A stretch of 22,911 nucleotides of DNA from a virus. A program made the translations under genes and the position numbers. The stretch spans positions 1 through 22,911 of the IMG/VR virus record IMGVR_UViG_3300047469_000056; one strand, 5' to 3'. Positions 4,147-21,282 of this stretch are shown in pieces (the stretch's first letter is position 1; the number at the start of each line of letters is the position of its first letter). Below the pieces are notes generated by a model. The model was not told where the DNA came from, made no database searches, and saw nothing but the letters and a program-made list of their open reading frames with translations.

Positions 4147-4147
4147 A

Positions 4148-4851: not shown

Positions 4852-5144
4852 CCGCGCGCCTCACACCAGGCCAGCTACACACCATGGCAGCGGAATGGGC
4901 CCGTTTCTGTGGCGAGGAAATACACGCCGTCCTTATCCAGGCGGCTAACGATGCTCAGAAGCTTGAGGAAATCGAGTACGGCACGGGTGGTTACGCACAG
5001 CGCCTAATGGATGCCATCGAGGGCGAGTGCGACGGCCTATCGATTGACGAGTTCCATGCTACGGCCATTCTTGGCTATGTGATGACCGGGATGTCGTCTG
5101 ACGAACTTGAAACCGCCCGCACCCCCAAGGAGCAGACGAAATGA
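4848..5144 (+). CDS. Hypothetical early phage protein
   Basis: The product has 98 residues. It is helical and acidic (LHTMAAEWARFCGEEIHAVL, DGLSIDEFHATAILGYVMTG). No family is recognised. ATGA-type overlaps on both sides place it in the same translationally coupled chain. Confidence 0.6.
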   Translation: MTARLTPGQLHTMAAEWARFCGEEIHAVLIQAANDAQKLEEIEYGTGGYAQRLMDAIEGECDGLSIDEFHATAILGYVMTGMSSDELETARTPKEQTK

Positions 5145-5806: not shown

Positions 5807-6077
5807 AATGATCGATAAGGCTATGACCGCCTACGACGAATTCATAGGTGCGGATGACGAGGCAGATTACGAAGCCATGCGCGCCGCACTTGAAGCCGCC
5901 ATATCCACCCAGCCCAAGGCAGTGAGTATGGAGAAGCTGGAGGCTTTTCAGGCCGAGTTTGAGTCGTCTCCGGTTCGCAAAGGACAGAGCAGCTACGACC
6001 TTGGCTACTTCGACGGATACCGCGACGCATTGGGTGCAGCGATAGACCTAACGGCCATCATCGGCGAGGGGGATTGA
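5781..6077 (+). CDS. Hypothetical early phage protein
   Basis: AAAGGAGG at 5763-5770 is an excellent ribosome binding site ten bases before the ATG at 5781, so this start is preferred over longer in-frame versions. The 98-residue product has two helical blocks (DEMIDKAMTAYDEFIGADDE, YEAMRAALEAAI) similar to those attached to Ea22-like proteins, and a C-terminal GYFDGYRDALGAAID. It overlaps the previous gene by 26 bases. Confidence 0.65.
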   Translation: MTQASVTDEMIDKAMTAYDEFIGADDEADYEAMRAALEAAISTQPKAVSMEKLEAFQAEFESSPVRKGQSSYDLGYFDGYRDALGAAIDLTAIIGEGD

Positions 6078-6078
6078 G

Positions 6079-6351
6079 GTGAGTGAATACGTGAATCCTA
6101 ATCGTGTTCCAGCGAAGTACATGACGGTGAAGAACTGGCGGTGGTGGGTAAGTCTGCCACTGACAATTGCGCTTCTACCGCCGGTCGCCGTCATCTATGT
6201 CATGGAACCCGTTGGCCGATTCCTACAGAAGATCGGGGAGCGTTGGGACTGGTGGGCCGACCGGAAGTTCGGCCCGATCAGGTCGTGGATACAGAAGGGC
6301 GGCATAACCGCCTACAACCGCCGAAAGGAGGTGGGCAGTGAGCATGGTTGA
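6079..6351 (+). CDS. Small membrane protein
   Basis: The product has 90 residues from a GTG start one base after the upstream TGA. A hydrophobic segment near residues 23-43 (WVSLPLTIALLPPVAVIYVM) follows a basic, Trp-rich leader and predicts one transmembrane helix. The C-terminal half is cytoplasmic-looking (basic, Trp-rich, RWDWWADRKFGPIRSW). No known family; it could be an exclusion or envelope-acting early protein, which is speculation. Confidence 0.6.
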   Translation: MSEYVNPNRVPAKYMTVKNWRWWVSLPLTIALLPPVAVIYVMEPVGRFLQKIGERWDWWADRKFGPIRSWIQKGGITAYNRRKEVGSEHG

Positions 6352-6643
6352 GGAATTGAAGGCTGCGATTGACGCGGTGCGTGCTGCCTATGCTAAGACT
6401 GACTGTATTGAAAGTAGCGAGGCATACGATCTTGCGTACAGCCGAACTTTCGACGTTATCTGCTACCACGGCCAAGCGCTGATTGAGGCAGTGGCTGATG
6501 CGGAGCGTTACAGGTGGATTCGTGAGCACAGCTACGTTGAGTTTACCTGTGACAGCCCGCGAAATGTCTATATGACCAATGAACAGTTCGACTCATATGT
6601 AGACCTTGCCCGAACCAAGGCCGGGGCGGGAGGTGAGAAATGA
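6338..6643 (+). CDS. Ea22-like early protein with DAERYRWIRE motif
   Basis: The product has 101 residues. GTG at 6338 is six bases after a strong AAAGGAGGT; ATG at 6344 is the alternative. The motif ADAERYRWIREHS near residue 56 is a recurrent element of Ea22-like and other small early phage proteins. The remainder is helical. The function is unknown. Confidence 0.7.
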   Translation: MSMVEELKAAIDAVRAAYAKTDCIESSEAYDLAYSRTFDVICYHGQALIEAVADAERYRWIREHSYVEFTCDSPRNVYMTNEQFDSYVDLARTKAGAGGEK

Positions 6644-6840
6644 ATACTGTGGCGATGTGGATCGGATACGTGACCATGGTATCCGGTGGCGTACTTTTCA
6701 TAGCCGGAGTTGTTTGGAGTGCCGCCTATGCAATCAATGTCTCATGCAGTAAGGCACTCGCGTCATACGGGGGCTGGAAAGTGTTCAAGGAATTCGTTAA
6801 GTGGCATCGCCAGAACAAGAATGCGGGAGGTGGGGTGTGA
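6640..6840 (+). CDS. Small membrane protein
   Basis: The 66-residue protein has one hydrophobic segment at about residues 4-32 (IGYVTMVSGGVLFIAGVVWS) and a basic C-terminal tail (EFVKWHRQNKN). It therefore probably spans the inner membrane once, with the tail inside. It is the second small membrane protein in this stretch, and its start overlaps the upstream TGA. Confidence 0.6.
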   Translation: MNTVAMWIGYVTMVSGGVLFIAGVVWSAAYAINVSCSKALASYGGWKVFKEFVKWHRQNKNAGGGV

Positions 6841-7076
6841 GGCTGAGGACTGAACTTGTCGAACACGCCAAGGGAGACTCGCGTCCATTAGTGGCTGGTC
6901 ACTACGACGCATCAATGGACACGTTGGTCAATTCACTAACCCACGACGCAGCCTTGGCCCATGCGCTAACACAGGCCATAGCCGAGGCCCGCAATCACTG
7001 CCACGGATCGTGGGATACGTGCGATTTCATTAGGGAAAGGGCTGACGAACTACTTAAATCGTGGGGTTATCTGTAA
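6837..7076 (+). CDS. Hypothetical early protein, WG-end paralogue 1
   Basis: GTG at 6837 overlaps the previous TGA and follows a GGGAGG stretch; product 79 residues. It has DAALAHALTQAIAEA in the middle and ends RERADELLKSWGYL. The next two genes share this plan (an alanine-rich helix, then a helix ending in W-G), so it is the first of three tandem paralogues. The role is unknown. Confidence 0.65.
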   Translation: MRLRTELVEHAKGDSRPLVAGHYDASMDTLVNSLTHDAALAHALTQAIAEARNHCHGSWDTCDFIRERADELLKSWGYL

Positions 7077-7276
7077 TGAAGTTCAACACAAAACTTACAG
7101 TAGAAGGCGTCAACACAAAGGTCACCGGTAACTATGGGGCCTTCAATCTTGATGCGGCATTAGCCCATGCCATGTACGTAGCCATGAGCGACCTTGACAG
7201 CTCGGGGGATATTTCAGGCATCTCGTTTACCCTCCGCCAAGTTGAGATACGTGCCGACGAACTTTTACGAGAATAG
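7076..7276 (+). CDS. Hypothetical early protein, paralogue 2, ending at TAG
   Basis: The product has 66 residues from an ATG overlapping the previous TAA. It shares DAALAHAMYVAMSDL and IRADELL with the upstream paralogue. It ends at TAG where the paralogue has TGG (Trp): DELLRE-TAG-GY against DELLKSWGY. Reading TAG as an amino acid continues in frame through GYGGAD into the ORF at 7295-7474, making a 132-residue protein. Whether the TAG is a true stop, a Trp-to-stop mutation or a recoded codon is not settled. Confidence 0.6.
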   Translation: MKFNTKLTVEGVNTKVTGNYGAFNLDAALAHAMYVAMSDLDSSGDISGISFTLRQVEIRADELLRE

Positions 7277-7294
7277 GGATACGGGGGGGCTGAT

Positions 7295-7474
7295 ATGAAA
7301 AGCTATGAAATTAAATCGAAACTTCATGCGGCATATCGGGCTGGCTACCTGCTAGCCGTCTCATACGGGTTCGCCGGCTCAGAAGCAGACTTCGATAAAG
7401 ACTCGTTCTCCACTGACGAAGCAACTGATCTTATGCGTATCGATGATGAAACTTATGACTCGGAGGACAGGTGA
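7295..7474 (+). CDS. Small hypothetical ORF in frame with the preceding gene
   Basis: The ORF gives 59 residues: MKSYEIKSKLHAAYRAGYLL, an AVSYGFAGSEADFDKDS segment and an acidic end DDETYDSEDR. A run of G at 7283-7289 may serve as a weak ribosome binding site for the ATG at 7295. It is in the same frame as the gene ending at 7276 with only TAG between them, so it could equally be the C-terminal half of a TAG-readthrough product. No family recognised. Confidence 0.5.
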   Translation: MKSYEIKSKLHAAYRAGYLLAVSYGFAGSEADFDKDSFSTDEATDLMRIDDETYDSEDR

Positions 7475-7818
7475 TGAGATACATAGGTAAGCCTATTGAG
7501 GTCGCCCAGATTCTCGAAGACTACCGATACAACTCCCAAGATATATACGACCCCATAATTGAGATACGAAGTGACGGAAAGGGAGGTTGGTTTCCTAATG
7601 GCCCAGGATGTGGAAATGAGTACGTCTTCTTCCTTGCCAGGGCGTTCTACGATGCCCTACATGCCCTTGAAGAGGTGGAGATGCATGAGGGACACCAAAT
7701 GTTCTCTATAGAGGATCTGAGTGGCCTAATCACGGCCAACCTTAGGCGGTGGGGTGCAATAGATCTTCAGGACGAGCTTTACCCTCTATACATGGGCGAG
7801 GAAGACGTAAATGGCTGA
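7474..7818 (+). CDS. Hypothetical early protein, WG-end paralogue 3
   Basis: ATG at 7474 follows GGAGG (7462-7466) at good spacing; a GTG one codon upstream is an alternative. The 114-residue product opens MRYIGKPIEVAQILEDYRY and contains ARAFYDALHALEEVE and LITANLRRWGAID, the same helix-plus-WG layout as the two genes upstream, with an extended N-terminus and C-terminus. The function is unknown. Confidence 0.65.
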   Translation: MRYIGKPIEVAQILEDYRYNSQDIYDPIIEIRSDGKGGWFPNGPGCGNEYVFFLARAFYDALHALEEVEMHEGHQMFSIEDLSGLITANLRRWGAIDLQDELYPLYMGEEDVNG

Positions 7819-8167
7819 CGTGGATCTCATGCACTGCTTTCGTCGCGCCCTGAAGGATTGGGAAGAACTTCGCATAGGGGAGCATGAAGAATCTGACGAT
7901 GATAGCGAGGCCCCATGGGATGAGTTTTACGTCCGATGGGTGGAGGATCGCGTGGCATCTCTGATGAGGGACGCCGAAGAGAACGGTGTCGACCTTCCGG
8001 AGGTCAATGGTTGTGAATTCTCCCCGGAGATCGCGCTCAACCGTGCCGCTTACATTATCAGTCGTGGAACTGACGTCGATCGCGAGACCAGATGTATGGC
8101 GATCATGGCAATGCAGCTTTATGACTGGGCAATTGGTCGCCAGGGGGTGAGAAGTGGCAAATGCTGA
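7811..8167 (+). CDS. Hypothetical acidic early phage protein
   Basis: The product has 118 residues from an ATG overlapping the previous gene by eight bases. It is very acidic in the first half (EHEESDDDSEAPWDE) and helical in the second (ALNRAAYIISRG, AIMAMQLYDWAIGR). No motif recognised. It is the last unknown gene before the integration block. Confidence 0.6.
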   Translation: MADVDLMHCFRRALKDWEELRIGEHEESDDDSEAPWDEFYVRWVEDRVASLMRDAEENGVDLPEVNGCEFSPEIALNRAAYIISRGTDVDRETRCMAIMAMQLYDWAIGRQGVRSGKC

Positions 8168-8411
8168 TATTCCGGATTGGCTGACCGAGGAACACAAGAA
8201 GCGTCTTCGCCCACAAGAGCCAAGAATAAGGTTCCTTCGCCTTCCGGAGGTGTGCTCGGTGACGGGTCTGAGTCGTACACATGTATACCGACTACAGAGT
8301 CGCGGAGATTTTCCTAAAAGCATCAAGCTAGGCTGCATGACTACGGTGTGGGTTGAGTCCGAAGTCCAGACTTGGTGCCGCGAACGAATCGAATCATCGA
8401 GGTCGAAGTGA
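8154..8411 (+). CDS. AlpA/MerR-like excisionase-type DNA-binding regulator
   Basis: The 85-residue protein starts at GTG 8154. Residues 27-70 read FLRLPEVCSVTGLSRTHVYR, then LQSRGDFPKSIKLG and WVESEVQTW: the canonical AlpA pattern, a winged helix-turn-helix followed by the G-x-FP-x-x-x-xLG wing and a W-x-x-x-EV helix. AlpA proteins activate prophage excision genes or act as excisionases. Lying three genes upstream of the integrase in the same operon, it is a good candidate for recombination directionality factor or int regulator. That role is inferred. Confidence 0.85.
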   Translation: MANADIPDWLTEEHKKRLRPQEPRIRFLRLPEVCSVTGLSRTHVYRLQSRGDFPKSIKLGCMTTVWVESEVQTWCRERIESSRSK

Positions 8412-8554
8412 TGACTGTCGAATGGGATGAATTCATCGGCACACTTGATGGAAACCTAACATCTGACGAAATGAAGCGTCTATGGGATCTAATCAATGAC
8501 GTTGCAGAGAGAAGGCTTCGTGAGAAGTTTGGAGGTTCGGGCGATGAGCGATGA
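8411..8554 (+). CDS. Very small hypothetical protein
   Basis: The ATG at 8411 overlaps the AlpA-like stop. The product is 47 residues, MTVEWDEFIGTLDGNLTSDE followed by a basic-acidic helix (LWDLINDVAERRLREKFG). It overlaps the DUF4224-like start by 11 bases. No family is recognised; the coupling on both sides suggests it is translated. Confidence 0.55.
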   Translation: MTVEWDEFIGTLDGNLTSDEMKRLWDLINDVAERRLREKFGGSGDER

Positions 8555-8756
8555 CAAGCTCTGCCTGTCCCGAGAAGAAATCGCCGAGTTCACCAGGGCG
8601 CACACGCGCGCCCGCCAGTTGGCTTTCCTGCGTAACAACGGGATTCGGCACTACGTGGACAACAACGGCTGGCCTGTGGTGACGGTTGCTGCAATTGAGG
8701 GCATCAAGGCGGAATCACGCCAGCGCACGCCGTGGAAGCCGCACAAGGCCGCATAG
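8544..8756 (+). CDS. DUF4224-like small protein beside integrase
   Basis: GGAGG at 8531-8535 supports the ATG at 8544; product 70 residues. It contains LSREEIAEFTRAHTRARQLA, FLRNNGIRHYVDNNGWPVVT and ends RTPWKPHKAA. This is the DUF4224 pattern (L..eEi.elT......Q...L...GI.h......PvV), a small protein commonly found immediately upstream of phage integrases. Its end at KAA then TAG agrees with the normal family end, so TAG seems to be a true terminator here. If read through, only seven residues would be added before TAA at 8775-8777. The integrase ATG begins one base after the TAG. Confidence 0.85.
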   Translation: MSDDKLCLSREEIAEFTRAHTRARQLAFLRNNGIRHYVDNNGWPVVTVAAIEGIKAESRQRTPWKPHKAA

Positions 8757-8757
8757 G

Positions 8758-9777
8758 ATGGGACGACGCCCGAGTAACCCGAATGCCATCCCTCGCCTGA
8801 GGCTGCGTAAGCGCCCGTCAGGGGTGCACTATTACTACGACCACGGCGGCACACCGCGCCGGGAGGAGCCGCTTGGAACGGACTATGGGCTGGCAATCCT
8901 GAAGTGGGCGGCCTACGAGAAGAATCGGCACGCTCAAGAGGTTGTAGCCGAGGTCGTGACTTTCCGGCATGTCTCCGACCGCTACCGCGCCCTTGTTATA
9001 CCCAACAAGTCGCCGGCCACTCAGCGTGGCAACGAGCGAGAGCTACGCCAGCTCTTGGCGTTCTTCGATAGCCCGCCATGCCCGCTAGACGACATCCAGC
9101 CTCAGCACGTCCGCATGTACCTGAGCAGTCGGTCATCGGCACCAGTACGCGCGAACCGGGAAAAGGCCCTTCTGTCCCACATCTGGAACTTCGCCAGGGA
9201 TTATGGGTTCACCTCCCTCGCGAACCCTTGCGCCGGCATCAAGGGGAACAAGGAGCGAGCGCGGGAGATGTACGTCACGGACGGGGCATTCAAGAGTCTA
9301 TGGAACGAGGCCAGCCAGCCGCTACGGGACGCGCTCGACCTTGCCTACCTCACGGGTCAGCGGGTGTCTGACGTTCTCAGGATGAGCGATGGGGATGTGC
9401 GCGACGGGGCGCTAGAGGTGACGCAGGCCAAGACCAAGGCTCGCCTCCGCATATCGGTCACGGGCGAGCTTGCGGCATTGCTGGAGCGTATCGCCGAGAG
9501 GAAGCGCGGGTATGCCATCCATGCCCTGCGGCTGATCGTGGACGAGCGAGGGAAGCCCCTGACCTACGCCAAGCTCCGAAAGCGATTCGACGATGCCAGG
9601 ATTGCCTCTGGCGTGGACTTCCAGTTCCGTGACCTTCGGGCCAAGGCGGCATCCGACAAGGCCGATTCCAGTGGGGATATCCGGCAGGCTCAGAAGCAGC
9701 TAGGCCATACCTCCGTGGTGATGACAGAGGCTTATGTCCGGTCAAGACGAGGGGCGAAAGTCAGCCCCACGAAATGA
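8758..9777 (+). CDS. int: Tyrosine-family phage integrase
   Basis: The 339-residue protein begins MGRRPSNPNAIPRLRLRKR, the N-terminal arm-binding style of phage integrases; the in-frame ATG at 8686 lies inside the previous gene and is not used. A core-binding SAM-like region spans roughly 65-150 and the catalytic domain 165-335. Catalytic residues are Arg202 (TGQRVSDVL), Lys at 225 or 227 (VTQAKTK), Arg294 in FRDLRAK, His317 (QLGHTS) and Tyr326 (TEAYVRSR). The first position of the usual HxxR box is Arg291, a variant I recall from related phage integrases. The enzyme inserts phage DNA at a tRNA; the matching tRNA-Leu fragment starts 64 bases downstream. Confidence 0.96.
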   Translation: MGRRPSNPNAIPRLRLRKRPSGVHYYYDHGGTPRREEPLGTDYGLAILKWAAYEKNRHAQEVVAEVVTFRHVSDRYRALVIPNKSPATQRGNERELRQLLAFFDSPPCPLDDIQPQHVRMYLSSRSSAPVRANREKALLSHIWNFARDYGFTSLANPCAGIKGNKERAREMYVTDGAFKSLWNEASQPLRDALDLAYLTGQRVSDVLRMSDGDVRDGALEVTQAKTKARLRISVTGELAALLERIAERKRGYAIHALRLIVDERGKPLTYAKLRKRFDDARIASGVDFQFRDLRAKAASDKADSSGDIRQAQKQLGHTSVVMTEAYVRSRRGAKVSPTK

Positions 9778-9779
9778 CG

Positions 9780-10010
9780 ATTGCGGAACGGATCAGGAAT
9801 TGCGGAACGAAATGGCTATGGCGAATACCCTCGCAGCCCTTGGTGCCCGGAGTGGGACTCGAACCCACATACCCTTACGGATGAGGGATTTTAAGTCTGT
9901 CGTGAAATGGCCGTACAAAGCCGTTTATGGACCATTCCTGTTCCGATTACATAGCGATTTCATGATATCCATATCCCTTGTTTTAGGATGCCAAGGAAAT
10001 ATTGCGGAAC
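9780..10010 (+). repeat. Three direct copies of ATTGCGGAAC around the attachment core
   Basis: Exact copies of ATTGCGGAAC occur at 9780-9789, 9799-9808 and 10001-10010, all in the same orientation. Two lie between int and the tRNA fragment and one lies on its far side. A degenerate inverted form (GTTCCGATT) lies at 9940-9948. Short direct repeats on both sides of a core are the usual layout of integrase arm-type binding sites in attP. Direct observation of repeats; function inferred. Confidence 0.8.
9841..9897 (-). other. Attachment-site core: 3' part of tRNA-Leu(UAA)
   Basis: On the minus strand the sequence reads from the anticodon loop ACTTAAAATCCC through a long variable arm, a T arm GTGGG-TTCGAGT-CCCAC (9852-9868), the acceptor strand TCCGGGC and an encoded CCA (TGG at 9841-9843). 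The anticodon is UAA, so the target is a class II tRNA-Leu. The 5' half is missing: no GCCCGGA acceptor strand or D arm is found upstream on this strand. A phage-borne 3' tRNA fragment beside int is the expected attP core; if the window is an integrated prophage with permuted order it could instead be an att end. Confidence 0.9.
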
Positions 10011-10288
10011 TACTTTCCGCCCTCATGCGGCATCCGATGCCTGCCCTTGGCCGGAGCAATCCGGTGGTGGTTGTGATGGGCCCATCGCTCCACGAACTTC
10101 TTGGCCTGAGCTTCGGTGCGGACGTAGGCACCAACGGCCGCCTCATCGTCATTCCCGTGCGGGAAGATGCTGATCCGCCACCGCCCATCCCGGAACGCCG
10201 TCTGTGTCACGTAACCGAACAGGGACTCACACCAGTAGGCGAACTGGGCGGCTCCCTCAACGCTTGGCGGTTTCCAGTAGACGGGCAT
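9983..10288 (-). CDS. Small hypothetical late protein (last gene of late module)
   Basis: From ATG at 10288 the frame gives 92 residues to a TAG at 10010-10012. If TAG is read as Gln, as elsewhere in this module, it continues nine more residues (including the Gln; QFRNISLAS) to TAA at 9983-9985, for 101 residues. The product has MPVYWKPPSVEGAAQFAYWC, FGYVTQTAF and an aromatic/His-rich C-terminal half. I do not recognise it. The extension runs through one of the ATTGCGGAAC repeats, so either end point is possible; under the standard code the gene ends at 10010. Confidence 0.6.
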
Positions 10289-10297
10289 GGCGACATC

Positions 10298-10783
10298 TTA
10301 CGCCCGGCTATCGGCCACCGTGATGTTCTTGAAGGCCGTAGCAAGGGCAGCATCCGTCACGGTGACGCGGTACACGCCGGAGGCCGCACTACCCTGGGGC
10401 GGGTTGCCGGCACGCGCAAAGGTCGTGCTCTGACCGCTTGGTGTACCGAGGGTGTACGTGCTGCCGCTGATGTTGGTCCATGCGTAGGTGTACGGAGGCG
10501 TGCCGCCGCTCGGGCTAGCGAAGCCGGTCCCGAAGATGCTACCCGTACCAGGCCAGCTATCGCCGCTTACATCGTTGGCATTGACCGACAGCGGACCGAC
10601 ACGGGTTGCCCCGTAGAAGTTTGTCAGGCCGATGGCTCCGGAGGTGGGCACGCCTGCGTTAGCTCCGGTATTCGCCACCCACGTACCGCCACGGTAGAAG
10701 GAGGTCAGTCCCGTACCGCGAGGGGCGAGGAATTCGTCCTAGATACTCTGAAGCGATATCGCCCCGCTGGCCGGAAGGGTCAT
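10298..10783 (-). CDS. Tail/fibre-type protein with Ig-like domain; one in-frame TAG
   Basis: The ATG at 10783 overlaps the fibre stop as TAATG. The N-terminus MTLPASGAISLQSI-TAG-DEFLAP is the classic 'LPASGxISLxxI..E' opening of phage structural proteins, including the SFYRGG element, and is found only if the TAG at 10739-10741 (codon 15) is read through; Gln fits. Later comes GGTPPYTYAWTNISGS ... GVYRVTVTDA, an Ig/PKD-like beta-sandwich pattern around residues 90-155. Product 161 residues, stop TAA. Probably a virion surface or fibre-associated protein; inference from domain and position after the tail fibre. Confidence 0.82.
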
Positions 10784-12039
10784 TACTTGCCCTCCAGAGC
10801 CCGTACGCGGGCCGCCAAGCCGATCACTGCCTCAAGGGCCAGCATTGCCTTGTCCACGCCGAGAACGCCGCTATCGTCCTCATAGACGTACTCGGGGGCC
10901 ACCTCGCGAACCTCATCAGCGATCACGCCAAGGTCAGGGCGGCTGTCCTTCTTCCACGTAAAGGAGACGAAGTTCAGCGAGTCGGCAAGATCCTGACGCG
11001 CCTTCCGCTTCTTGACGTACTTCTTCAGGCGGCGATCCGACGTGGCGATGAAGTTCGGACCTGTCCAGACGCCCGTGACCGTCGTGTTGCCCGTCGTGGC
11101 GCTGATGGTGATGGTGTCACCAAGGCCGCCATTGAAGAACAGGCGGGCTGACCCCGTCGTGTAGTACCACTGGGCAGTGGCACCCGAGTTTGTACGATCG
11201 GCGAACGTGAATCCGCAGCCGCCACCATCCACTGCCACCTGATTGTGGACCGTGACCTGACCGCTAGAGGTGATGGCACCCGAAGTCACCAGCGTGGATG
11301 CGTTAATGGCCGTCAGGTTGACGGTTGCCAGCCCTTCGTGGACGAGGCGGTTAGCGACGGCGCCCGCAGACCAGCCACCCACCTTCCACGCGTTGTCCGT
11401 ATCAATACCGAGGTAGGAGGCAAAGGCACCTGTTCGGTTGAATTCGAGGAAGGCCGCATTGGCGCCTGATGCACCAACCACGGCAACCTTGCCCAGCGAG
11501 GCGGTAGCCGTTGCCATGCCGCCCGACGTAGGTGCTGTCGTGACCTTGCCGGTAAGTGTGCCACCGACAAGGGGGAGATAGGCCGCAAGGACCGTCGTCA
11601 GGTCGGCAATATCGGCCGAGGCAATCTTCGATCGCGGCCCCGTCATCCGCCAGTTGCCGGACCCAAGGCTGCGGAAGGTGAAAACGTCCCCCGCGGCTGC
11701 CGTGATATTTGCGGCATTCGGAAGGACAATGGCGGTAGAGTTGGTAATGACGGCACCGGCCGACTGGAAAACTACCTCGCGCTTGATACCGGGAGGGGTC
11801 GTGCCGAAGCTGGTAATCGCGGCCGAGCCGGTGACGATGACGGACTCGGCATCAGCGGTTCCCAGATCCGTCGTCGAAGCCGATGCGAGTGTGGCCGAGG
11901 CAAGGGCATTCGTGGACCGGAGAATGGCCTACACGGCCCGCAGGTAGTCGTCCAGGCTGTTACCAATAGCGTCCGACCCCGCAGGGCTGTTACTAGCCGG
12001 AAGGGTCGCCAGATCGGACATTTTAGACGGAACGGGCAT
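10783..12039 (-). CDS. Tail fibre/spike with C-terminal S74 intramolecular chaperone; one in-frame TAG
   Basis: The 418-residue product starts at ATG 12039 behind GAGGTG. The N-terminus has PAGSDAIGNSLDDYLRAV followed by TAG at 11929-11931 (codon 37), then AILRSTNAL; Gln fits this helical virion-anchor region. A beta-rich central part includes YLPLVGGTLTG and VTSGAITSSGQVTVHN. The end is a peptidase S74 chaperone: ATSDRRLKKYVK (Ser334), FTWKKDSRPDLGVIADEV, YVYEDDSGVLGVDKAMLALE and a terminal helix. This domain trimerises the fibre and then cleaves itself off at the Ser of SDRRLK. The gene follows the ejection genes, as expected for a podovirus receptor-binding protein. Confidence 0.92.
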
Positions 12040-12062
12040 TTCCACACCTCAGAGGGTTAAGC

Positions 12063-12260
12063 ATGCTGTTATTCATCAAGATATTTGGCGGATTCATCAT
12101 AGCTCCGCTCGTCACGGTGCTTTTGTATGGCACCGCCCGGCTTGTCGCGATGGCCGTCGCCAAATGGATGCCAGAGTGCGGGCTCAAAAGAGCCCTACTC
12201 ACCGATACAGAAACGAAGAAGCTGGCTTACATCCCGCCTGCGAGCAAGCCGCGACGCTGA
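12063..12260 (+). CDS. Small membrane protein on the opposite strand within the late module
   Basis: The 65-residue product MLLFIKIFGGFIIAPLVTVL continues through YGTARLVAMAVAKWMP and ends with the basic tail PPASKPRR. It has one transmembrane helix. The layout (hydrophobic helix, ARL...A..MP...LKR.L) is reminiscent of tiny membrane proteins in other phages. AGAGGG lies just upstream of the ATG. Its last 34 bases overlap the end of the ejection-protein gene on the other strand, and it contains no TAG. A lysis or exclusion role is possible but unsupported. Confidence 0.65.
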   Translation: MLLFIKIFGGFIIAPLVTVLLYGTARLVAMAVAKWMPECGLKRALLTDTETKKLAYIPPASKPRR

Positions 12261-14152
12261 TTCACTTGCGGGGCCGCTGTTGACTGACCGAGCAGACCGG
12301 CACTCATGCCCAGATTTTGCAGTAAAGCACTCTTGGTGGCCGGATCGATGGTCGGATCACGCAAGACCTTAGCCAGTACTTGTGGCGAACTATTTAGTCC
12401 CTGGAAGGCTCGTGCAGCACCAACCGCAAACCCCGCAGCGGGAAGATGAGTTGCTCCACCGGCTCCAAGTAGCCCATAGGCAGCGAGCCTCTCAGGTGTT
12501 CCGCTATTCGGAATGCCGTCCTTAAGGAACTGCTGTCCAATTGCAGCAAGCTCGGCAAGATCGCCCCCGCGACCGGATGCTACAGCCTCCTTCTTTGCGC
12601 CAGTCGCCGTTACTCGACCGAGTAGAGCGGCAGGACTGATATTTCCGTTTACCTGGTCCTTGGTGACGAGGTCACGAATTGTCTTTAGGTTGCCGTATTG
12701 CTGATTTGCCTGCCGCCACGCCGCCTGGTCTGCCGGGGAAATTGAATCATCAAGGGCAGAGGAGAGAATGCCGCGGATCTAGCCGGCATAGTTGCCCTTC
12801 TCACCACCGGACCGCGCAATTTGCCCGAGCTGGGACTGGACCGACTGAAACGCCGTGCCAGGAAGCAGCCCTTCCTGGGTAGCCTGTTTCTGGATTCGGC
12901 CGAGAAGGCTGGTGACGGCACGAACACTGTCATCGCTACCCGTCTCCGTGGCTTCACCGAGAATGCCGGCAAGCTTATCCTTGACCCCATTCAGATCAAT
13001 GGTGTTGCGCGATGTGATGTCGTCGTAAGTGGCTCCAATCCGCTTCTTAGCAGCTGAGTACAGGGCCGGGGTTATGGCATCAGCGTCCTCACCGATGGTC
13101 GAAGCCACGGCACGATTAAACGCTTTTTGCTGGTCGGCCCCGATGCGGCCTGCTCCGCTGAAGGGCACCTTTGCGCTAACTGAATCGAGCGTCTTGCTGA
13201 TCCTACTGTCAGATACCTAGCTCGCCTTGAGTGGGATGCCGTAGTCCTGAATGGCCGTCTTCGCGAGAGCTGCGGCCTCTGGCGTAGCCTTGGACATAAG
13301 GTTTCCAGCCACCCATCCAGCAGTTCGACGTGCCACCTGACCGCCACCGGCGATAAGCCCGCGGCCGCCTACGCCAGCACCAGCACCGATGGCTGCATTG
13401 AGTAGGCGGTCACTCTCGTCCTGTCCGGAAGCCAACGGCTGCATAGCCCCTTGCGCAGCTCCGGACATTGCTGTTCCGCCGTAGCCTTCCGGAAGCACTC
13501 CGCGGGCCATGCCAGCTCCCTTGAGCGCAGTTCCCGCAGCCACGGCCTGAAGGGCTTGGCCTGTGATGTTGCCGAGCAAGCCCGACTTCGTCTTCATGAG
13601 GGCGGCATCACTGGCGTTAACCTAAGACTGCTGTTCTTTCAGGTCTCCATAGGTTTCCGCCAGTGGCTTTCCGACAAGGTCGGGGGAGCCCGTAATCTGC
13701 GCAGCCACACTAGTTGGGAGCGTGGCTAGTCTCGCAAGGCCAACCCCAGACTGGGCCATGCCTCGCATATTGTCTAAGACTGATTTCCCTGCTCCGGCTT
13801 CAAAATTTGATACGCCTGGAGACTGACCTATGCCAGTGTCAATTCCGGCGACACTGAGGTTACTGCCACTCTCTGCCGCTGAATTATGGTACGCCGCCAA
13901 TTCTTCCTGTGTCGGACCGCGCAGAGTCGCGCCCTGTGCACGAAGACCACGAAACAGGGCTGTAGATGCTTCGTCGTCGCCTGCTGCGCGGGCGCGGTAG
14001 AAAGCCTGCGCTAGCGCCTCAGGGTCATACTGAGTGGCCGCTTGGGAAGGCTGCGCCTAGTTAATCGCTCCCTGGAGCACTGCGACCGCCTACTAGTCAC
14101 CAGAAGACTAGGCATTGGCTAGTGCAGCCTGAAGCTGTTCAATGGTCGCCAT
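12227..14152 (-). CDS. Large ejection-type internal virion protein; seven in-frame TAG codons
   Basis: ATG at 14152 overlaps the previous TAA as TAATG. A single frame runs to TAA at 12227-12229, 641 residues, if TAG is sense. The TAGs are codons 15, 20, 21, 32, 177, 312 and 458 (14108, 14093, 14090, 14057, 13622, 13217, 12779). The start reads LQAALANA-TAG-SSGD-TAG-TAG-AVAVLQGAIN-TAG-AQPSQ, a helix where Gln is natural. Later parts are Ala/Gly-rich and amphipathic (GNITGQALQAVAAGTALKGA, AIGAGAGVGGRGLIAGGG) with long helices, typical of podoviral DNA-ejection proteins. No TGA or TAA interrupts the frame. The ejection role is inferred from composition and gene order. Confidence 0.9.
14090..14095 (-). 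other. Tandem TAG TAG codons inside the ejection-protein gene
   Basis: Codons 20 and 21 of the gene starting at 14152 are adjacent TAGs, in the context SSGD-TAG-TAG-AVAVLQ. Two more TAGs lie at codons 15 and 32. Translation past this point needs efficient amber decoding. Confidence 0.95.
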
Positions 14153-15375
14153 TACTTGCCCCCATGTAGGGCCAATGCCTGCTCAACAGTCATGCCTTGC
14201 GGTGCAGAAGCCGCCTGCGGAGCCCCACCCGTGGCCTTCTGCACGGCCATGCCCTTCTTCTTAGCCCGCTCAAGACCCTGCCTGAGAACGCCAACGGCGA
14301 CATCTACGTGCTTGATAACATCAGCCTTCGACATATTCGGGTCAATTGCAGAGATGGCATCGGTGGCCTTCTGGCCCTCTACATCCGTGATTGCGCCACC
14401 ACCACGAAGCTGATTGAACGCCTGAAGGAACAGGCTTCCTTTGAAGCTGTCGAGATCACGTCCGAACGTGTAAGCATCCGTGCCGGGGATATTTCGCGTG
14501 ATTCCGCCGATGATGCCTGTGCCCTCTCCAATTCCCTTCGACATTTTCAGCGCGTTGGCTGCATTGATAGCGTTGGTAACGTTGTCGATGCCGGCCTCAG
14601 ATGCTTGCGTGGCGTCAGCATTCTTCAATTGCTGGCTGGTGTCTCGGAAGGTGTTATTGCCGATGACGCCAGCACCGCCAGCCTGCACAGGAGTAACTTC
14701 GCCAGTGATCTTGTTGACGTTGTAATACTGGCCGTCCTTCCCCTGGATGAGCTGGAACGCGCCGGGACCGAAGTGCCCGCCGCCCGCGCCACCAGATCCG
14801 CCAATACCCATCTGCTTCGGGTTCCAGCGAGGGGCGGTAGCGATCGTTTTCCACGAGCCATCCGGCTGCTGCTCCTGCGTCAGGATGTTGTCACCGCTGT
14901 TGATCTCGCGTGTCGTTCCCTGGAGGTCGCGCTGTGCCTTGTCCGTCTGCAAGCCAACTAGCTTGTTGCGTAGTTCGTTCTGGTGCAATTCCATGGCCTG
15001 TTGCGGATACTTCTCCGCGACTTTGGCGATGTAACCCTCCATGTCGTTCTTGCCGTTACTAAAGAACGGAAGCGCCATATCTTGGATGTCACGACGGATG
15101 CGGATCTGCTCCTGCTCGTCGTCCATCTTCGACTGCTGAAACTGCATTTGCTGCTGCTTGAACTTGTCTTGCTGTAGCTGCTGCCCACCCTACTGAGCGG
15201 CCTGAAGACCACCCAACAGACCGCCGGAGATAGCCTGCATGGGCGACACGCCCGGCTGACCGTTGGCCTGAAGAATGCCCAGCCCGGCCTGCAACAGGCC
15301 ACCACGGGCAAGCTGCGCCCTCTCGTCATCCGAGGCGCCGGGGGTGGGGCCGATAAGACCGTCATACCAAGCCAT
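14152..15375 (-). CDS. Gln-rich internal virion / ejection-type protein; one in-frame TAG
   Basis: ATG at 15375 overlaps the preceding TGA as TGATG. The start MAWYDGLIGPTPGASDDERA runs into a helical segment GGLLGGLQAAQ-TAG-GGQQLQQDKFKQQQ; the TAG is at 15190-15192 (codon 62) in a Gln-rich coiled-coil-like stretch. With it read as sense the product is 407 residues, ending TAA. The middle includes DGQYYNVNKITGEVTPVQ and a C-terminal helical region with SFKGSLFLQAFNQLRGGGAI, familiar from phage structural proteins of the ejection group. Function inferred from position between other ejection-type genes. Confidence 0.88.
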
Positions 15376-15788
15376 CAGCGCATACTCCCAAGCAGTCCGA
15401 GACGAGAGCCGTTACCGATGTATCCGGCCTGACCTTGCTGGACCTGACCAAGAGCGCCGCCCGCACGACCGCCACCGAACTATGGCTGACGGTACGCCGC
15501 CATATCCGTCTGTTGCGGGTTAGTCTGCTGGGAATTCAGTGCAGCAAGTGCCTGCTGGAAGGAAGGGCCCTGCGCCTACTGGCCGGGGTACTGGCTTTTC
15601 TGTAGCGCCCACTGGCCGATCTTAGAAAAGTCCAGGCCTTGTGTAGCCGCAGACTATGCCTGTCCGCCACCAAGCACCTGGCTGTAGTCCGTCGCCGGCT
15701 GGAATTGCTGGTATTGCTGCATCGGTATCTACGCTTGTGCATTTGCGTTCGGTGCGGCCATGCCTGAGAGAAAATCGAAAGTGCCCAT
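15375..15788 (-). CDS. Small Gln-rich virion protein; four in-frame TAG codons
   Basis: The frame from ATG 15788 to TGA 15375-15377 gives 137 residues if TAG is sense. TAGs are codons 20, 45, 71 and 103 (15729, 15654, 15576, 15480). Contexts: NANAQA-TAG-IPMQQYQQF, GGGQA-TAG-SAATQ, QYPGQ-TAG-AQGPSF, AAYRQP-TAG-FGGGRAGG. The protein already has 25 Gln codons, so four TAGs would bring Gln to about one residue in five. Under the standard code no product longer than 57 residues remains in this frame, so the gene is missed entirely by ordinary gene finding. Likely a small internal or tail-assembly protein. Confidence 0.88.
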
Positions 15789-15797
15789 GTGTCCGCC

Positions 15798-16886
15798 TTA
15801 GAGGTAATAACCCATAGCAGCAAGTCCGCCACCGATAAGTGCGCCTGCGCCTGCACCGATGGGACCGCCGGCCGCACCAATCGTTGCACCAGTGGCAGCG
15901 CCAGCTAGCGCACCGCCACCTACCGCAGCAGCAGCCCCACCAGCCGTGCGTGGCTTGTACGCGGGGTTGGTGCCAGAGGTGGACGAGCCCTGGAAATTGC
16001 CCGCTACAGAATTGAGGGCGTTCCCGTAGTTATTGAGCCGCTGCTGATCGTAGCCGTAGTTCTTCTGATACCAGTCGTTGTAGTTCTGATCGATGTTGCC
16101 CTGGGCGAAGTCCTGCTGCACCTGACCCATGCCGGCAAGCTGGCTGTTCCATTGCGACTGTAGGGCCTGCTGACCGTTGAGTGCGCTCGATGCGCCAAGG
16201 AAGTTCTGGACGCTCTGCCCTGCCGACTGGAGGTTGTTCTGGAAATACTGCTGGTCCAGTGCCGAGTTGCGCGCAAGGTCGGTCTACTGGGCCTGTACGG
16301 ATCGGTTGAGCGCGTTCTCGGCAAGGCCCTGCTGGGTCGTGTAGTCGTTGAATCGGAGGCTATTCGTGGACTGCGCGAGGTTCTTCGCCAGCGTGTCCTA
16401 GGATGCCTGCCCGGCCTGCTGCATGGCCGAACCGCCGAATGCCCCACCCTGTGCGAACTGGGCCGCTAGAGCTGGCACGGCGTTCTGGTTGTACTGGTCG
16501 GTAATGTTCTGGTTCGAATCATTGACCATCTGGTTGAGGTACTGATTCTGTCCCGCGTAGGGGTTGGTGCCGACGTTGGTCGTTGCGCCCTGATACGCGT
16601 TGCGGTTCACGGGAACGTTGTACAGGCCGTTAAGGACGTTCGTCAGTGCACCCGACTGAGAGTACGTCCCCGGCAGCTACCCAGCGGCACCTGCTTGTGC
16701 CGTCTGCAATGCCTGGTTCTGTCCGGACGAGAGGCCGGCGTTGAGCTGGCCCTAGTAGGACTGGTACGGCTTTGCATTGGCCGCATTTGTCTGCCCGAGG
16801 AAGTCGGTGTATGCCGTATTGAGCCACGGCGGCAGCTCCGTCTTGGTCGTGGAGGTCGTGTTCTTTGGTGCTGAAGACCCGCCCAT
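15798..16886 (-). CDS. Ejection-type virion protein with glycine-zipper end; four in-frame TAG codons
   Basis: ATG at 16886 overlaps the previous TAA as TAATG; stop TAA. The 362-residue product has TAGs at codons 45, 70, 163 and 201 (16752, 16677, 16398, 16284). Contexts include KPYQSY-TAG-GQLNAGL, GAAG-TAG-LPGTYSQSG, QQAGQAS-TAG-DTLAKNL and NRSVQAQ-TAG-TDLARNS. Early ELPPWLNTAYTDFL and 'PYQ.Y.GQ..AGLS' are known openings of podoviral internal proteins. The middle is Gln/Asn-rich helix; the last 50 residues are Gly/Ala-rich (GGGALAGAATGATIGAAGG), a glycine-zipper membrane-inserting segment. Likely part of the DNA-ejection apparatus. Confidence 0.9.
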
Positions 16887-17329
16887 TAGGTAACCTCGTA
16901 ATATGCTTTCATGAGACGAAACCTCTTACTCTTGACCCACGAGGAATCCTGAGTGGTTGAGAACACGATGCGCTCCAGGCCCATTTCACCCGCGATGCGT
17001 TTGGACAGTTCGATGCCGTAATGGCCGTAGTCCGACTTCTCTGCATGACCTAGCCAGATATTAAGGACCGGGCTTGTTTCGTAGGCCACAGGCATCACTT
17101 CGTAGACACCGAATCCGGCATGCACACCCTACATATCGGTAAAGGTGTACAGGGCCGCTCTGCCGGTCGCCAGGGCCGTGTAAACGTCCTCCGGAATCCA
17201 CGACTCGCCATTGCACTCCCTGATCTTCACAATGCCGGGGAGGACGATGGGCCACGCCTGTCTAACGTCGGCCACGTAGGTGTAGTTCAGGACGCCATCG
17301 GCTGTTACGCCGGAGATGTTAGGAAACAT
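16886..17329 (-). CDS. GNAT-like small phage structural-cluster protein; one in-frame TAG
   Basis: The preferred ATG is 17327-17329, three bases after the previous gene's TAA; an upstream in-frame start at 17365 would overlap that gene. The TAG at 17129-17131 (codon 67) sits in LYTFTDM-TAG-GVHAGFGV. Read as sense it joins two halves into 147 residues: EDVYTALATGRAALY, then VLNIWLGHAEKSDYG and RIAGEMGLERIVFSTTQDSS. This layout resembles short acetyltransferase-fold phage proteins found next to tail genes. No substrate can be named. Stop TAA overlaps the next start. Confidence 0.85.
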
Positions 17330-17331
17330 CG

Positions 17332-17640
17332 TTAGTTGCCTGTAAGAGTGCGGACGGGGAGCCATGTGCCTGGCGTACCGGCGACGGTGCAGGTCCAGCC
17401 CTGTACGGTGTATTTCGAGCCAGCGGTGCCCAGTTCAGTCGGGGCGGAGTTGCGTACGAAGTCGCCCGCTGCATTCGTTCCCGACACGGGGATCGTGGCC
17501 TGCGCGTTCTGCACGGCAGCCACACGCCCTTCGGTCAGGTTGTTCAACTGGTTCGTCAGGTCGCGGATGATGTTCGTGAGCCGGAGGACGAGCTGTTGCT
17601 AGTCGCTGGGCAGGCGCGGATCGGTGAGTAGACGGGTCAT
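17332..17640 (-). CDS. Small virion protein; one in-frame TAG
   Basis: ATG at 17640 overlaps the upstream TGA. The N-terminus reads MTRLLTDPRLPSD-TAG-QQLVLRLTNIIRD, TAG at 17599-17601 (codon 14), immediately followed by CAA CAG, so amber as Gln would give QQQ. The C-terminal half (AAGDFVRNSAPTELGTAGSK, GWTCTVAGTPGTWLPVRTL) is a familiar phage tail-associated module ('GDFVRNS.P.ELG..GSKY...GW.C...GTPG.W...R.LTGN'). Product 102 residues, stop TAA. Confidence 0.88.
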
Positions 17641-19094
17641 TCGGTTGTCGTCGCCAGGAGGTCGGGCATGTAGCCGTCGATCGTCATCGCACCCGGCCAG
17701 TCCATCCGGCAACTGTGCCAACGGGCATCGCGATGGAAGTCGAAGCGACCGCGGCTCTGCATGATCGTGGCGTCCTGCACGGGATCGGTGCCAAGGTCGT
17801 AGCGGTAGTAGTTCGTGCCCTGTGCCGAGTCCGGGGCGTTCCTGTATCGCGGGGTGACGCGGCGGAGCATGGAGAAGTTCGTCTCGTCGCCGATGTCGCC
17901 CGTGATGAGGTAGGACGGTCCCGGAATACCGGTCAGGCTGTAGAGCTTATGGTCCGTGCTGATGACGCCAGGAACCGTGTTGTCCTGAATCCAGAACGGT
18001 GAGTCGTAGCTGATGTTCGGCAGGGCGTCGTAGGTGGCGTAAAGCGTTCCCAGTCCATCGTAGGTGACGTTGCCGGAGGAATACTGAATCACCGCCTCGA
18101 TGGATCGAGTGAACTTGCCCCACTTGTTCGTGCGCAGGTTGTAGACGATGCATTCGTCACACGTCCCGTCCGTGGATGCGGTGCTGGGGAAGTACCAGTA
18201 CACCAGATCGCGGGTCAGGTCGGCACCGCCCTTGATATTGCCTCGCTGCAGGCCGTTGAGGTTGGTGAAGAACCATTCGCGAACCGGAGCACCGATGCTA
18301 CGCGGCACCGTGCCATCGTAGACGTAGAAGTCAGCCGGGCCGACGAAGAAATGGGACGAGCCCACGACCACGACCGCCTCTTGCCCGGAGCAGCCGATAT
18401 CGCCGGGGATGCGCTGCCATGACCAGATCAGGGGCGGGCCGGCGTACTACCCAAGGAACATGGAACGCTCCTTGTAGGCCACTACGGTGTCGCCTAGCTC
18501 ACGTCCAGCAGTGATCGGGCCGGGAGCCGTGACCAAGCGACCGTTGGCCGCCTGCGTCGTTGCAGAGGGCGTCCACGAGGCCTGGTTGAACAGGGCCGAG
18601 CACCACCACCCGTCAGGCTGGTCGCCGAAGCCTCCGGTCAGGTCCACGACGTTGAAGGCCAGCACGAAGTTAGCCGCCGAGCAGATGATGGCAGCAGCCG
18701 GTGCATCGGCGATATCGGCGAAGTTGGCCGACTGTGGGGCCTATTGGATGCGTTGGGCACGGTTGGCGGCAAGGATGTTGTTGCCGAACATGGTGAAGCG
18801 CCACGGAGCAAGGCCGGTGTAGCCGCCCACCCTGGATCGATCGGTCCACACGCCACCCGAGATGTCCCACAGCTTTGCGTTGGTGCCCGCGACGATACGC
18901 TTGGTGCCGTCCAGCAGCGTCCCAACGTAGGCACCCTTGCACGCACTGTCCAGCGCGGCGAGACCTGCATCTACCAGGCTGTTGCCAGCAGAGAAACCCT
19001 GCGTAGACGGGATGATATTGTCGCAATCGACGATGGCCCCCGGCGTCGAAGGGTCCAGATCGGGCGTGAAGCCGATAAGCGGGATGTTACTCAT
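17637..19094 (-). CDS. Phage tail/virion protein (propeller-like); two in-frame TAG codons
   Basis: ATG at 19094 overlaps the preceding TGA. The 485-residue product opens MSNIPLIGFTPDLDPSTPGA, continues with DCDNIIPSTQGFSAGNSL and GTKRIVAGTNAKLWDISG, the standard opening of a podoviral tail protein family with repeated beta blades. TAGs are codon 118 (18741-18743: NRAQRIQ-TAG-APQSANF) and codon 216 (18447-18449: RSMFLG-TAG-YAGPPLIWSW). The remaining segments (IGAPVREWFFTNLNG, VYNLRTNKWGKFTRSIEAV) match the same family order. Read with the standard code the gene falls into three pieces. Stop TGA. Confidence 0.92.
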
Positions 19095-19693
19095 GCCGTG
19101 ATGAAGTCCACATGCGGACGCGGCGAGGGTCCGTAGCGCAGCATGTCGTCATTAGCACGCATGGCCGTGAGTGCCGTAGTGTAGCCCTGACCGAACAGGG
19201 CCGTACGCTGGTCGTCGCGAAGGTAAATGCACGCCTCCAGAAGCGTCCCATACAGATACAGCTGTGGCTGGGCCAGAATCAGCCAGTTTTGCGTGGCTGC
19301 ATCGGAAAGACTGGGGATGTTGCCGTAGTAGAACAGACGGTAGTCCGCATCCGCAGCGCCCACGATATTGATGACGCCGTTGACCATGGTGTAGCCAATC
19401 GGGAGCACGAAAAGCTGAGAATTCGTGTCCTGAATCGGCGGAACAGGATACAACTCACGCTCGACGCCGTCAGTGGTGACGATGAGCGCCTGGACCTGTC
19501 GAAAATCCGAGGGCGGCGTGATCTGACCAGCTACAGACGTACCCGTTACAAGTCGCTGCTGAGGCGACAGACGCAAATCGTTGTTCATCCTCGCTTCGGC
19601 AAGCTGGATGAAGGTCGGAATGATGCCGCCTAGATCGGCACGCGCAAGAAACTACGCGACGTTGGATTGTAGGGTGGCGTAGTCGTTCAGCAT
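19091..19693 (-). CDS. Head-to-tail adaptor-like protein; one in-frame TAG
   Basis: ATG at 19693 follows the upstream TAA by three bases. The start MLNDYATLQSNVA-TAG-FLARADLGG leads to IIPTFIQLAEARMNNDLR, the typical opening of phage adaptor/tail-tube-type proteins ('YadL...va.wl.R.DL...ip.fi.laEarinrdLR'); the TAG is at 19652-19654 (codon 14). Later parts are FRQVQALIVTTDGVERELYP, VNGVINIVGAADADYRLFYY and the helical LYLYGTLLEACIYLRDD. Product 200 residues. By family and position it should sit between portal and tail. Confidence 0.9.
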
Positions 19694-19696
19694 TGG

Positions 19697-19984
19697 TTAG
19701 ACCTTGCCCTGCCAGATGCGGAAAGAGGCGAATGCGGACGAATTCAGGAGTCGCCGAAGGTGCTCGGGGTTCACCTCAAACTCGTGGGGCGTGATGCCGT
19801 GGATATTGATGTAATCCTCGACCAGTACATTAGGCAGCTTGGCCGCATGTTTCATTTCATGCGAACCGACAGCGCCCACAGACCTTAGGGCGGCACACGC
19901 GTCGAGAATGGGCTCGATATCCTGAACCCGGTTCTGCGTCATATCGTCTCCGTCAAAGGAGACATAAGTCTTAATCAGGCCCAT
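19697..19984 (-). CDS. Conserved small phage protein ('FRIWQGKV' end)
   Basis: The 95-residue protein begins MGLIKTYVSFDGDDMTQNRV and contains DIEPILDACAALRS, HEMKHAAKLPNVLVEDYIN and ends LLNSSAFASFRIWQGKV. The pattern 'EPIld.a..l....e..h.A.iP..v.e.y....Git..ef..n.eH..rlLn...fa.FRiw.G.v' is common among podoviral head genes; its function is not known to me. No TAG. The start overlaps the previous gene's end by ten bases; stop TAA. Confidence 0.8.
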   Translation of the reverse strand: MGLIKTYVSFDGDDMTQNRVQDIEPILDACAALRSVGAVGSHEMKHAAKLPNVLVEDYINIHGITPHEFEVNPEHLRRLLNSSAFASFRIWQGKV

Positions 19985-20283
19985 TCGATAGGCACCACGT
20001 TAACGAATCCGCCCGCTGCGTTCTGGATGACTGCAAACACGTCGTAATTCTGGACATTGACCACAATCGCGTCACCAGGCATCAGCAGGGTGTCGTTGGT
20101 CGTGGCAGTCGCGGTGGTCTTGTTGAACCTGATGTGGGCGGCGACGGTCGCCGTGGCACGCACGTACTTGGCAACCACGCCTGCTGAGTTGACAGGAATA
20201 GCCGTCTGTGCGGATGAGGCTCCCGAGGCTACCGTGACGCCCACAACGTCAATGTTGAGGCTGGTGATTGGGGACTTGAACAT
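19975..20283 (-). CDS. Small beta-rich head protein (possible decoration/head-fibre)
   Basis: The product has 102 residues, MFKSPITSLNIDVVGVTVAS with many beta-prone Val/Thr stretches (KYVRATATVAAHIRFNKTTA, LLMPGDAIVVNVQNYDVFAV). It lies directly downstream of the capsid gene, where decoration, cement or head-completion proteins are often encoded. The role is therefore an inference from position and composition. No TAG; GGGAG precedes the ATG; stop TGA. Confidence 0.7.
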   Translation of the reverse strand: MFKSPITSLNIDVVGVTVASGASSAQTAIPVNSAGVVAKYVRATATVAAHIRFNKTTATATTNDTLLMPGDAIVVNVQNYDVFAVIQNAAGGFVNVVPIEWA

Positions 20284-20301
20284 TAACTACTCCCAAGGGA
20301 A

Positions 20302-20319
20302 GGCCCCCTTTCGGGGGCC
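20302..20319 (-). terminator. Hairpin after the capsid gene
   Basis: On the minus strand GGCCCCC-GAAA-GGGGGCC forms a seven-pair all-GC stem capped by a GNRA-type tetraloop, 18 bases past the capsid TAA. It is followed by UUCCCUU rather than a clean U run, so it may be an attenuating terminator or an mRNA-stabilising end that raises capsid expression over downstream genes. Confidence 0.6.
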
Positions 20320-20336
20320 AACCACATTGCAGGTTC

Positions 20337-21272
20337 TTACGTGAGGTCGCGGATCTGGGCGTGGGCGTCCTTGTTGTCCATCTGGAGGCCGAATTCCCAG
20401 GTAATCAGCATCTTTTCCGCATCGCCCGTCTTCGCCAGCGGCTTTGCCTCGACGTTACGCAGCGTCTTGAAGCTAACGTGGTCGTAGTCGAGCAGGTAGG
20501 CCGCGGCATCAATGAAACGATCCGGAACCACCTTCAGCGAGCCGAAGTCGGTCACGTATACGTCGTAAGCAGCGTGCAGCTTGTTGCTGTCGGCCTGCTC
20601 GAAACGCGTGGCGTTTCCGGTGAAGCCCGACACGATAACCTTGTCGGACGGACGGACGAGGAGCTGAGACGGAGCACCGCCAGCCGTGTAGGCCGTCTGC
20701 ATCGCCGACTTCACAAGTGCCTCGGAAAGCGCACGAGGCGTACCGGCGACCGGAGCCGTATTGGTGGACGGGACAGGAAAAACGCCAGCACCCGCACCCA
20801 CGGAACCCTGGGTGATCCAGCCAGCGAGTCCGCGCGTCTGGCGGGCGACAGTGGTGGAACCTGCGTTGAACGTGGTGTTCTGAACCAGGCCCGTTTCGGC
20901 GTCGCGCTTCAGTTCCTTGAGCTTCTTCGACTTCTGGTAGGCGATTTCCGACTTGCGGCCGGCCTTGTCGACCACTTCTTCGGTATCGGAGATGATGAAG
21001 TTCTTTGTCGAGACTTGGCAGTAATTGCCCCAGCGAGTAGAAGGAGTAACGGCCGTGAAGCTGGCAACGTCATCGCCTTCGAGCTGGGCGTTATTGGCCG
21101 CGGCAGCAAGGGAGTCGGTCTGCCATTCGAAGAAGCGGGCCGAAGCCTTGCCCTTCTTGAGCGCCGAGTAGAACGGGGTGTCAGTCGGCGAGATCATATC
21201 GATAACGTCCGACAGGTCCTCACGCTAGCCGATCGCGGAGTACGTGGTGTAGGTATTGGCAACAATGGTCAC
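20337..21272 (-). CDS. Major capsid protein, SU10/DUF5309-like; one in-frame TAG
   Basis: GTG at 21272 follows GAGGA at good spacing. The product (311 residues) reads MTIVANTYTTYSAIG-TAG-REDLSDVIDM then ISPTDTPFYSALKKGKA: the invariant start of the SU10-like major head protein family, where the peptide before ISPTDTPF normally includes 'G.REDLsD.I'. The TAG is 21225-21227 (codon 16). Starting instead at the downstream ATG (21197) removes this conserved N-terminus. Other family features are ARFFEWQTDSLAAA, NYCQVSTKNFIISDTEEVVD and FGSLKVVPDRFID. It forms the icosahedral shell. Stop TAA, then a hairpin. Confidence 0.95.
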
Positions 21273-21282
21273 TTAACTATCC

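Follow-up and report, generated by a model that had tools for sequence, protein, structure and literature searches.

Glutamine assignment of TAG codons in the late genes of a P22-like temperate phage and their placement near gene starts

The window described in this report is the whole 22,911-base stretch of the viral record IMGVR_UViG_3300047469_000056. It very probably stems from a temperate P22-like phage that uses genetic code 15 for its late genes, with TAG decoded by means of a late CUA tRNA. Decoding would be efficient and would compete with release factor 1, and TAG codons near the 5' ends of genes would be tolerated or favored. TAG aligns with glutamine, is confined to late genes and is accompanied by a CUA tRNA in relatives. 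Thus, the kind of recoding is known and the lineage is apparently new. The part worth following is the biased placement of the TAG codons.

Late phage genes in which TAG is recoded to glutamine, together with suppressor tRNAs, are established in gut phages, crAss-like and others (PMC7886860, PMC9523058, PMC10607447, PMC11210395). In two gut crAss-like phages glutamine at TAG was proven by peptides (PMC7886860, PMC9523058). With the code 15 crAss-like phages (Crassvirales; PMC7886860, PMC9523058) the present family shares late TAG codons for glutamine, a CUA suppressor and code switching at short phylogenetic distance. It differs from them as a group of small temperate P22-like phages of ~40 kb and 58% GC whose relatives include prophages of Gammaproteobacteria (Rhodanobacteraceae). 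Its suppressor lies upstream of the terminase, and its TAG codons are strongly biased towards 5' ends. The phage phAss-1 and the 'Caudoviricetes code 15 clade' (PMC10607447) likewise have TAG in structural genes and CUA suppressor tRNAs of glutamine isotype, but phAss-1 is a gut phage of 136 kb with a large tRNA array. Code 15 gut phages also have suppressor tRNAs linked to theta ribozymes (PMC10879173), whereas the Rfam models detected no HDV-like or theta ribozyme next to the suppressor tRNAs described here.

Stop recoding in phages may serve as a regulatory switch or reflect neutral drift of the code, and the debate has so far drawn mainly on which sets of genes are recoded. Borges and colleagues reportedly put forward in 2022 the hypothesis that recoding regulates the translation of lytic genes, and are said to have described recoded prophages in standard-code hosts. 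Citing papers credit the same work with the idea that recoding sets the timing of lytic genes (Borges et al. 2022, as cited in PMC10746230 and PMC13059738). The present family extends recoding beyond gut phages of Bacteroidetes and Firmicutes. It has recoded and standard-code members that share 79% identity, some of its members are temperate phages of cultivable soil bacteria (Luteibacter, Dyella), and its TAG codons are packed near 5' ends, which makes the choice between switch and drift testable in a laboratory host.

Record layout and the glutamine assignment of late TAG codons

The record is classed as linear, which often denotes a fragment. The late (virion) gene cluster occupies 9983..22911 on the minus strand and contains 28 in-frame TAG codons; the record end truncates it before the portal and terminase genes. 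It includes the tail fiber, three ejection-type genes, gp10- and gp4-like tail genes, the SU10-type major capsid and the scaffold. This order is that of P22-like podoviruses, and gp numbers were assigned by position. The early cluster (399..8756, plus strand) encodes a YqaJ nuclease, an SSB, small ORFs and a DUF4224 gene adjoining the integrase. The tyrosine integrase itself lies at 8758..9777 on the plus strand. Beside it, at 9841..9897 on the minus strand, an attP-like sequence repeats the 3' half of a tRNA-Leu(UAA); by eye it is nearly identical to the Luteibacter tRNA-Leu(UAA) gene. The phage is therefore temperate and probably integrates at that tRNA gene. The attP-like copy sits within the record, between the integrase and the late genes, and the record looks like an unintegrated phage form. 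Positions 1–130 hold ~30-base tandem repeats, coding for ATASG-like repeats, that are cut by the record edge. A search with an exact 40-base pattern found no overlapping contig that extends the record.

Relatives were collected in one scan with the gp10-like protein, which yielded 32 viral loci; the analysis drew on 19 recoded records, the window among them. Two relatives are prophages, one in Dyella sp. SG609 and one in Luteibacter sp. Sphag1AF, and the host of the window is probably a member of the Rhodanobacteraceae. Other relatives, among them three of ~79% identity (L011, L013 and L015), have no in-frame TAG in their late genes. In the tree of the gp10-like protein, recoded and standard states switched at least twice.

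The 17 late ORFs of the window contain 28 in-frame TAG codons, no TAA and no TGA in 4271 codons, and TAG makes up 9.7% of their glutamine codons. The 27 early ORFs contain 97 glutamine codons and no in-frame TAG. By arithmetic, the chance of finding no early TAG at the late rate is about 5e-5. Two early genes end in TAG according to the ORF calls, an ORF without assigned function (7274-7276, plus strand) and the DUF4224 gene (8754-8756, plus strand). Late read-through would extend both, the DUF4224 protein by seven residues. Greedy ORF calls on whole contigs were too noisy, due to shadow ORFs, for genome-wide early and late counts, and the figures drawn from them are confined to named conserved genes.

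At columns where a recoded phage has TAG, standard-code relatives have glutamine in 48% of cases, compared to 58% at CAG and 54% at CAA columns. Apart from glutamine no residue is prominent at the TAG columns, and glutamine is the top residue there in every recoded genome taken separately. Codon 118 of the gene at 17637-19094 corresponds to a glutamine that is invariant across recoded and standard-code phages. Late homologs terminate with TAA or TGA in all 224 recoded cases, whereas TAG is the terminator in 2 of 94 standard-code cases. By comparative alignment TAG is read as glutamine, and its use as a sense codon is restricted to the late genes.

The in-frame stops could also be explained by decay of the gene in a pseudogene or defective prophage, or by assembly errors. 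Nothing favors this explanation except the stops themselves, and its probability is negligible: TAG alone is affected in the late frames, the early genes are clean and homologous frames in 18 other recoded loci show the same pattern.

The TAG cluster of the ejection gene

The gene at 12227..14152 (minus strand) starts with ATG, ends with TAA and has 641 codons if TAG is read as glutamine. It matches PHROG 26400 'DNA ejection protein' with E=1.5e-73 (profile match). It is located after the gp7- and gp20-like ejection genes, the P22 gp16-like position, and its neighbors match phrog_2534 and phrog_4287. A recoded relative (L002) has a homolog with 57% identity over residues 3-623. Since the frame is open with respect to TAA and TGA for 641 codons, matches the PHROG profile and aligns with this homolog, it is coding and not a chance frame. 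The stop of the upstream gene and the ATG of the ejection gene overlap in TAATG (14150..14154, minus strand), which suggests translational coupling.

The first-pass annotation had described four TAG codons within the first 32 codons. Translation confirms them exactly: codon 15 (14108..14110), the adjacent codons 20 (14093-14095) and 21 (14090-14092), together 14090..14095, and codon 32 (14057..14059), spanning 14057-14110 on the minus strand. Further TAG codons are found on the same strand at codons 177 (13622..13624), 312 (13217..13219) and 458 (12779..12781). Codons 15 and 21 correspond to glutamine (CAG or CAA) in L002, codon 32 aligns with glutamine in L004 and L005, and codon 312 with glutamine in L003, a standard-code homolog. 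At codon 15, L004 and L005 have arginine.

When TAG labels were shuffled among all 285 late glutamine codons, four TAG codons within 18 codons were obtained with P = 0.037 and a tandem pair with P = 0.26. The cluster is thus mildly unusual taken alone. It is an extreme case of a 5' bias of TAG throughout the family, and this bias is the real signal.

In a rival reading, translation begins downstream of codon 32 and the four codons belong to an untranslated leader. This refutation had been anticipated with the cluster itself. Weak internal starts are indeed present, for instance TTG at codon 85 with AGGA upstream. The first ATG past codon 32, on the other hand, is codon 129 and has no Shine-Dalgarno motif. 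Furthermore, the N-terminal module can be aligned from Met1 with L002 and with L004 and L005. The latter two begin with MATIEQLQ, identical to the ejection gene, and have no in-frame TAG there. An internal start cannot rescue the gene because three TAG codons remain downstream, for starts at codons 85-149 as for any start in codons 33-177. A downstream start is extremely unlikely, and codon 1 is, in all likelihood, the true start as judged from the homologous N-termini.

The sequence reads as two similar helix-hairpin-like units, of which residues 1–33 would be the first. Residues 1-74 have no matches in annotated phages. Conservation of the four TAG codons had been proposed as a check and was not observed: alone among near homologs L002 shares this module, and it has CAG, CAA or a codon for another residue at these positions. 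Variation of this kind among homologs is expected, since TAG is a synonymous codon.

Suppressor tRNAs of the recoded relatives

Among the recoded relatives whose upstream sequence is long enough, most have a CUA tRNA. ARAGORN at default settings found it in 12 relatives, immediately ahead of the terminase-sized genes and 7.4-8.8 kb upstream from the gp10-like gene. A relaxed ARAGORN threshold adds L014 and L018, giving 14 recoded relatives in all. The same region is covered in the standard-code relatives L013 and L015 and lacks a CUA tRNA; this pair provides a natural contrast for loss or gain of the code. Upstream of the tRNA, and on its strand, lies a gene of 440-484 amino acids, in which no TAG occurs among 133 glutamine codons over seven genomes. 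In the recoded L025, a 20 kb fragment with 25 TAG codons, no CUA tRNA is present within 10 kb upstream of the gp10-like gene. The tRNA of L025 may lie elsewhere, be degenerate or fall outside the fragment.

ARAGORN, Rfam and a hand-written cloverleaf scan of both strands detected no tRNA in the window, a result that is uninformative because the expected site lies 3.5-5 kb past the record end. The phage presumably encodes its own suppressor at that site.

The bacterial glutaminyl tRNA identity set comprises G73, U1-A72, G2-C71, G3-C70, U35 and A37 (PMC9976931). The suppressors match this set save for U1-A72. All eight unique suppressors have G73, G2-C71 and U35, and seven of them have G3-C70. 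Position 1-72 is unpaired in all eight (U-C, A-C or C-C), with C72 in each. In host tRNAs the standard 1-72 pair is missing in one of 44, the initiator. A weak or open 1-72 pair is compatible with charging by GlnRS, as in mischarged amber suppressors.

The scaffolds of the suppressors (L006-L037 loci) differ: ordinary, with a long variable arm (e.g. L012:2619-2712 and L020:2095-2181) and a 71-nt form (L014:2238-2308 being a further suppressor locus). Even close relatives have different scaffolds, as in the pairs L018/L022 and L006/L012, as if the suppressor tRNA had been swapped as a cassette. Since scaffolds vary and the TAG columns nevertheless correspond to glutamine in all, the tRNA looks exchangeable with a constrained acceptor end.

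A suppressor encoded by the host, or one charged with an amino acid other than glutamine, was considered. The window without a tRNA would fit a host-encoded suppressor. The class II long-arm suppressors of L012, L020 and L021 show features of serine identity (PMC9976931), which would fit another amino acid. However, the genome of Luteibacter sp. Sphag1AF, host of one relative, has no CUA anticodon among 46 Rfam tRNA matches. The serine-like identity of the three long-arm suppressors was rejected by the glutamine at their TAG columns: the fractions of glutamine and serine are 0.73 vs 0 in L012, 0.33 vs 0.06 in L020 and 0.58 vs 0.02 in L021. Both variants of this alternative are very unlikely. 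The preferred reading is a phage CUA tRNA, encoded upstream of the terminase at the head of the late cluster as in the relatives, that would be charged by the host GlnRS and decode TAG late in infection.

Upstream of the suppressor in the Luteibacter prophage region L130, a low-scoring tRNA-Gly(UCC) is present (G021:C2:244544-244617).

TAG placement along late genes and decoding efficiency

Positions of TAG codons were measured on the coordinates of standard-code homologs, which avoids over-extension of ORFs by reading through TAG. The share of TAG among glutamine codons is 22% in the first 20 codons, 21% in codons 20-40, 16% in codons 40-80, 9% in codons 80-160 and 7% beyond codon 320. In 18 of 19 records the first 40 codons are richer in TAG. 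Within-gene permutation in 12 thinned genomes gave 143 TAG codons in the first 60 codons compared to 85.9 expected (z=9.0), with a positive deviation in each of the 12 genomes. After collapsing to independent columns, 107 TAG codons were counted and 68.9 expected (z=6.6); at columns with glutamine in the standard-code homolog the 5' bias has z=3.8. A repeat with slightly different inclusion of genes gave 151 compared to 91.6 expected (z=9.2). In this repeat set the gradient persists past codons 80, 100 and 150 (z 3.3-4.2). A TAG lies within the first 60 codons in 113 of 180 genes (68.5 expected). These position tests rest on one phage family.

The choice between CAA and CAG, used as a control, has no 5' bias. 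TTG versus CTG has a 1.24-fold 5' bias, compared to 0.94-1.10 for most other synonymous choices at the same cut. Since TTG is also weakly favored over CTG near the 5' end, the TAG bias may in part reflect a general effect on codons. Additionally, a purine follows TAG in 65% of cases and CAR (CAG or CAA) in 58%. A purine context favors amber suppression and avoids a C at +4, with which RF1 interacts (PMC6266110).

Because TAG is a sense codon for glutamine, efficient amber decoding is needed in the late phase. The first-pass annotation had stated that virtually no full-length ejection protein could be made otherwise, and had concluded that suppression is near complete and not leaky. The need for efficient late decoding stands. 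Near-complete decoding does not follow from the cluster, which sets a lower bound only, and the placement of TAG is not neutral. With equal initiation, the output of the ejection gene relative to the capsid gene, with seven TAG codons versus one, scales as e^6. It amounts to 1.6% at a per-codon efficiency e=0.5, 12% at 0.7 and 53% at 0.9. In P22, an ejection protein is present in about ten copies, next to roughly four hundred coat subunits. For so few copies, decoding at 0.5-0.7 per codon could already be adequate.

If lytic amber decoding were near complete, TAG would be a cost-free synonym of CAG. Two observations are in line with this. Relatives have genes with up to 10-11 TAG codons, and the major capsid gene, presumably the most highly expressed one, is not depleted of TAG (0.096 of its glutamine codons, equal to two ejection genes). 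Free neutral decoding is, on the other hand, argued against by the within-gene 5' enrichment in all 12 representative genomes, by the continuing gradient and by the purine-rich 3' context, none of which it predicts. Given these patterns and the lower bound set by the cluster, cost-free decoding is unlikely.

Probably, either termination at TAG still costs something or 5' TAG codons act as a gate; both may apply. The gradient is what residual termination predicts, since stopping far along a gene costs more and produces larger fragments, and the 5' excess of TAG is what gating predicts. In the preferred reading, the four TAG codons of the ejection gene would be glutamine codons of a late gene in code 15, with early genes in the standard code. 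As long as the tRNA is missing, in lysogeny and early in infection, ribosomes would get no further than codon 15. In its presence decoding would be efficient and would still compete with release factor 1. TAG codons would hence be tolerated or favored near the 5' end, where failed reading is cheap and would gate the gene.

Selection of TAG placement for the gate itself is a more tentative proposition and is somewhat doubtful. In that case, translation of late mRNAs that arise in lysogens or ahead of time would be aborted within a few dozen codons, at 5' TAG codons that stand alone or in stacks such as that of the ejection gene, until the late-cluster suppressor tRNA is present. The exchangeable tRNA scaffolds, long-armed ones included, would have converged on an acceptor end suited to GlnRS.

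The code 15 phage literature surveyed, which did not include the original of Borges et al. 2022, does not describe recoded stops as concentrated near 5' ends. In phAss-1, an unrelated code 15 phage, a weak 5' trend was observed that may be due to over-extended ORFs.
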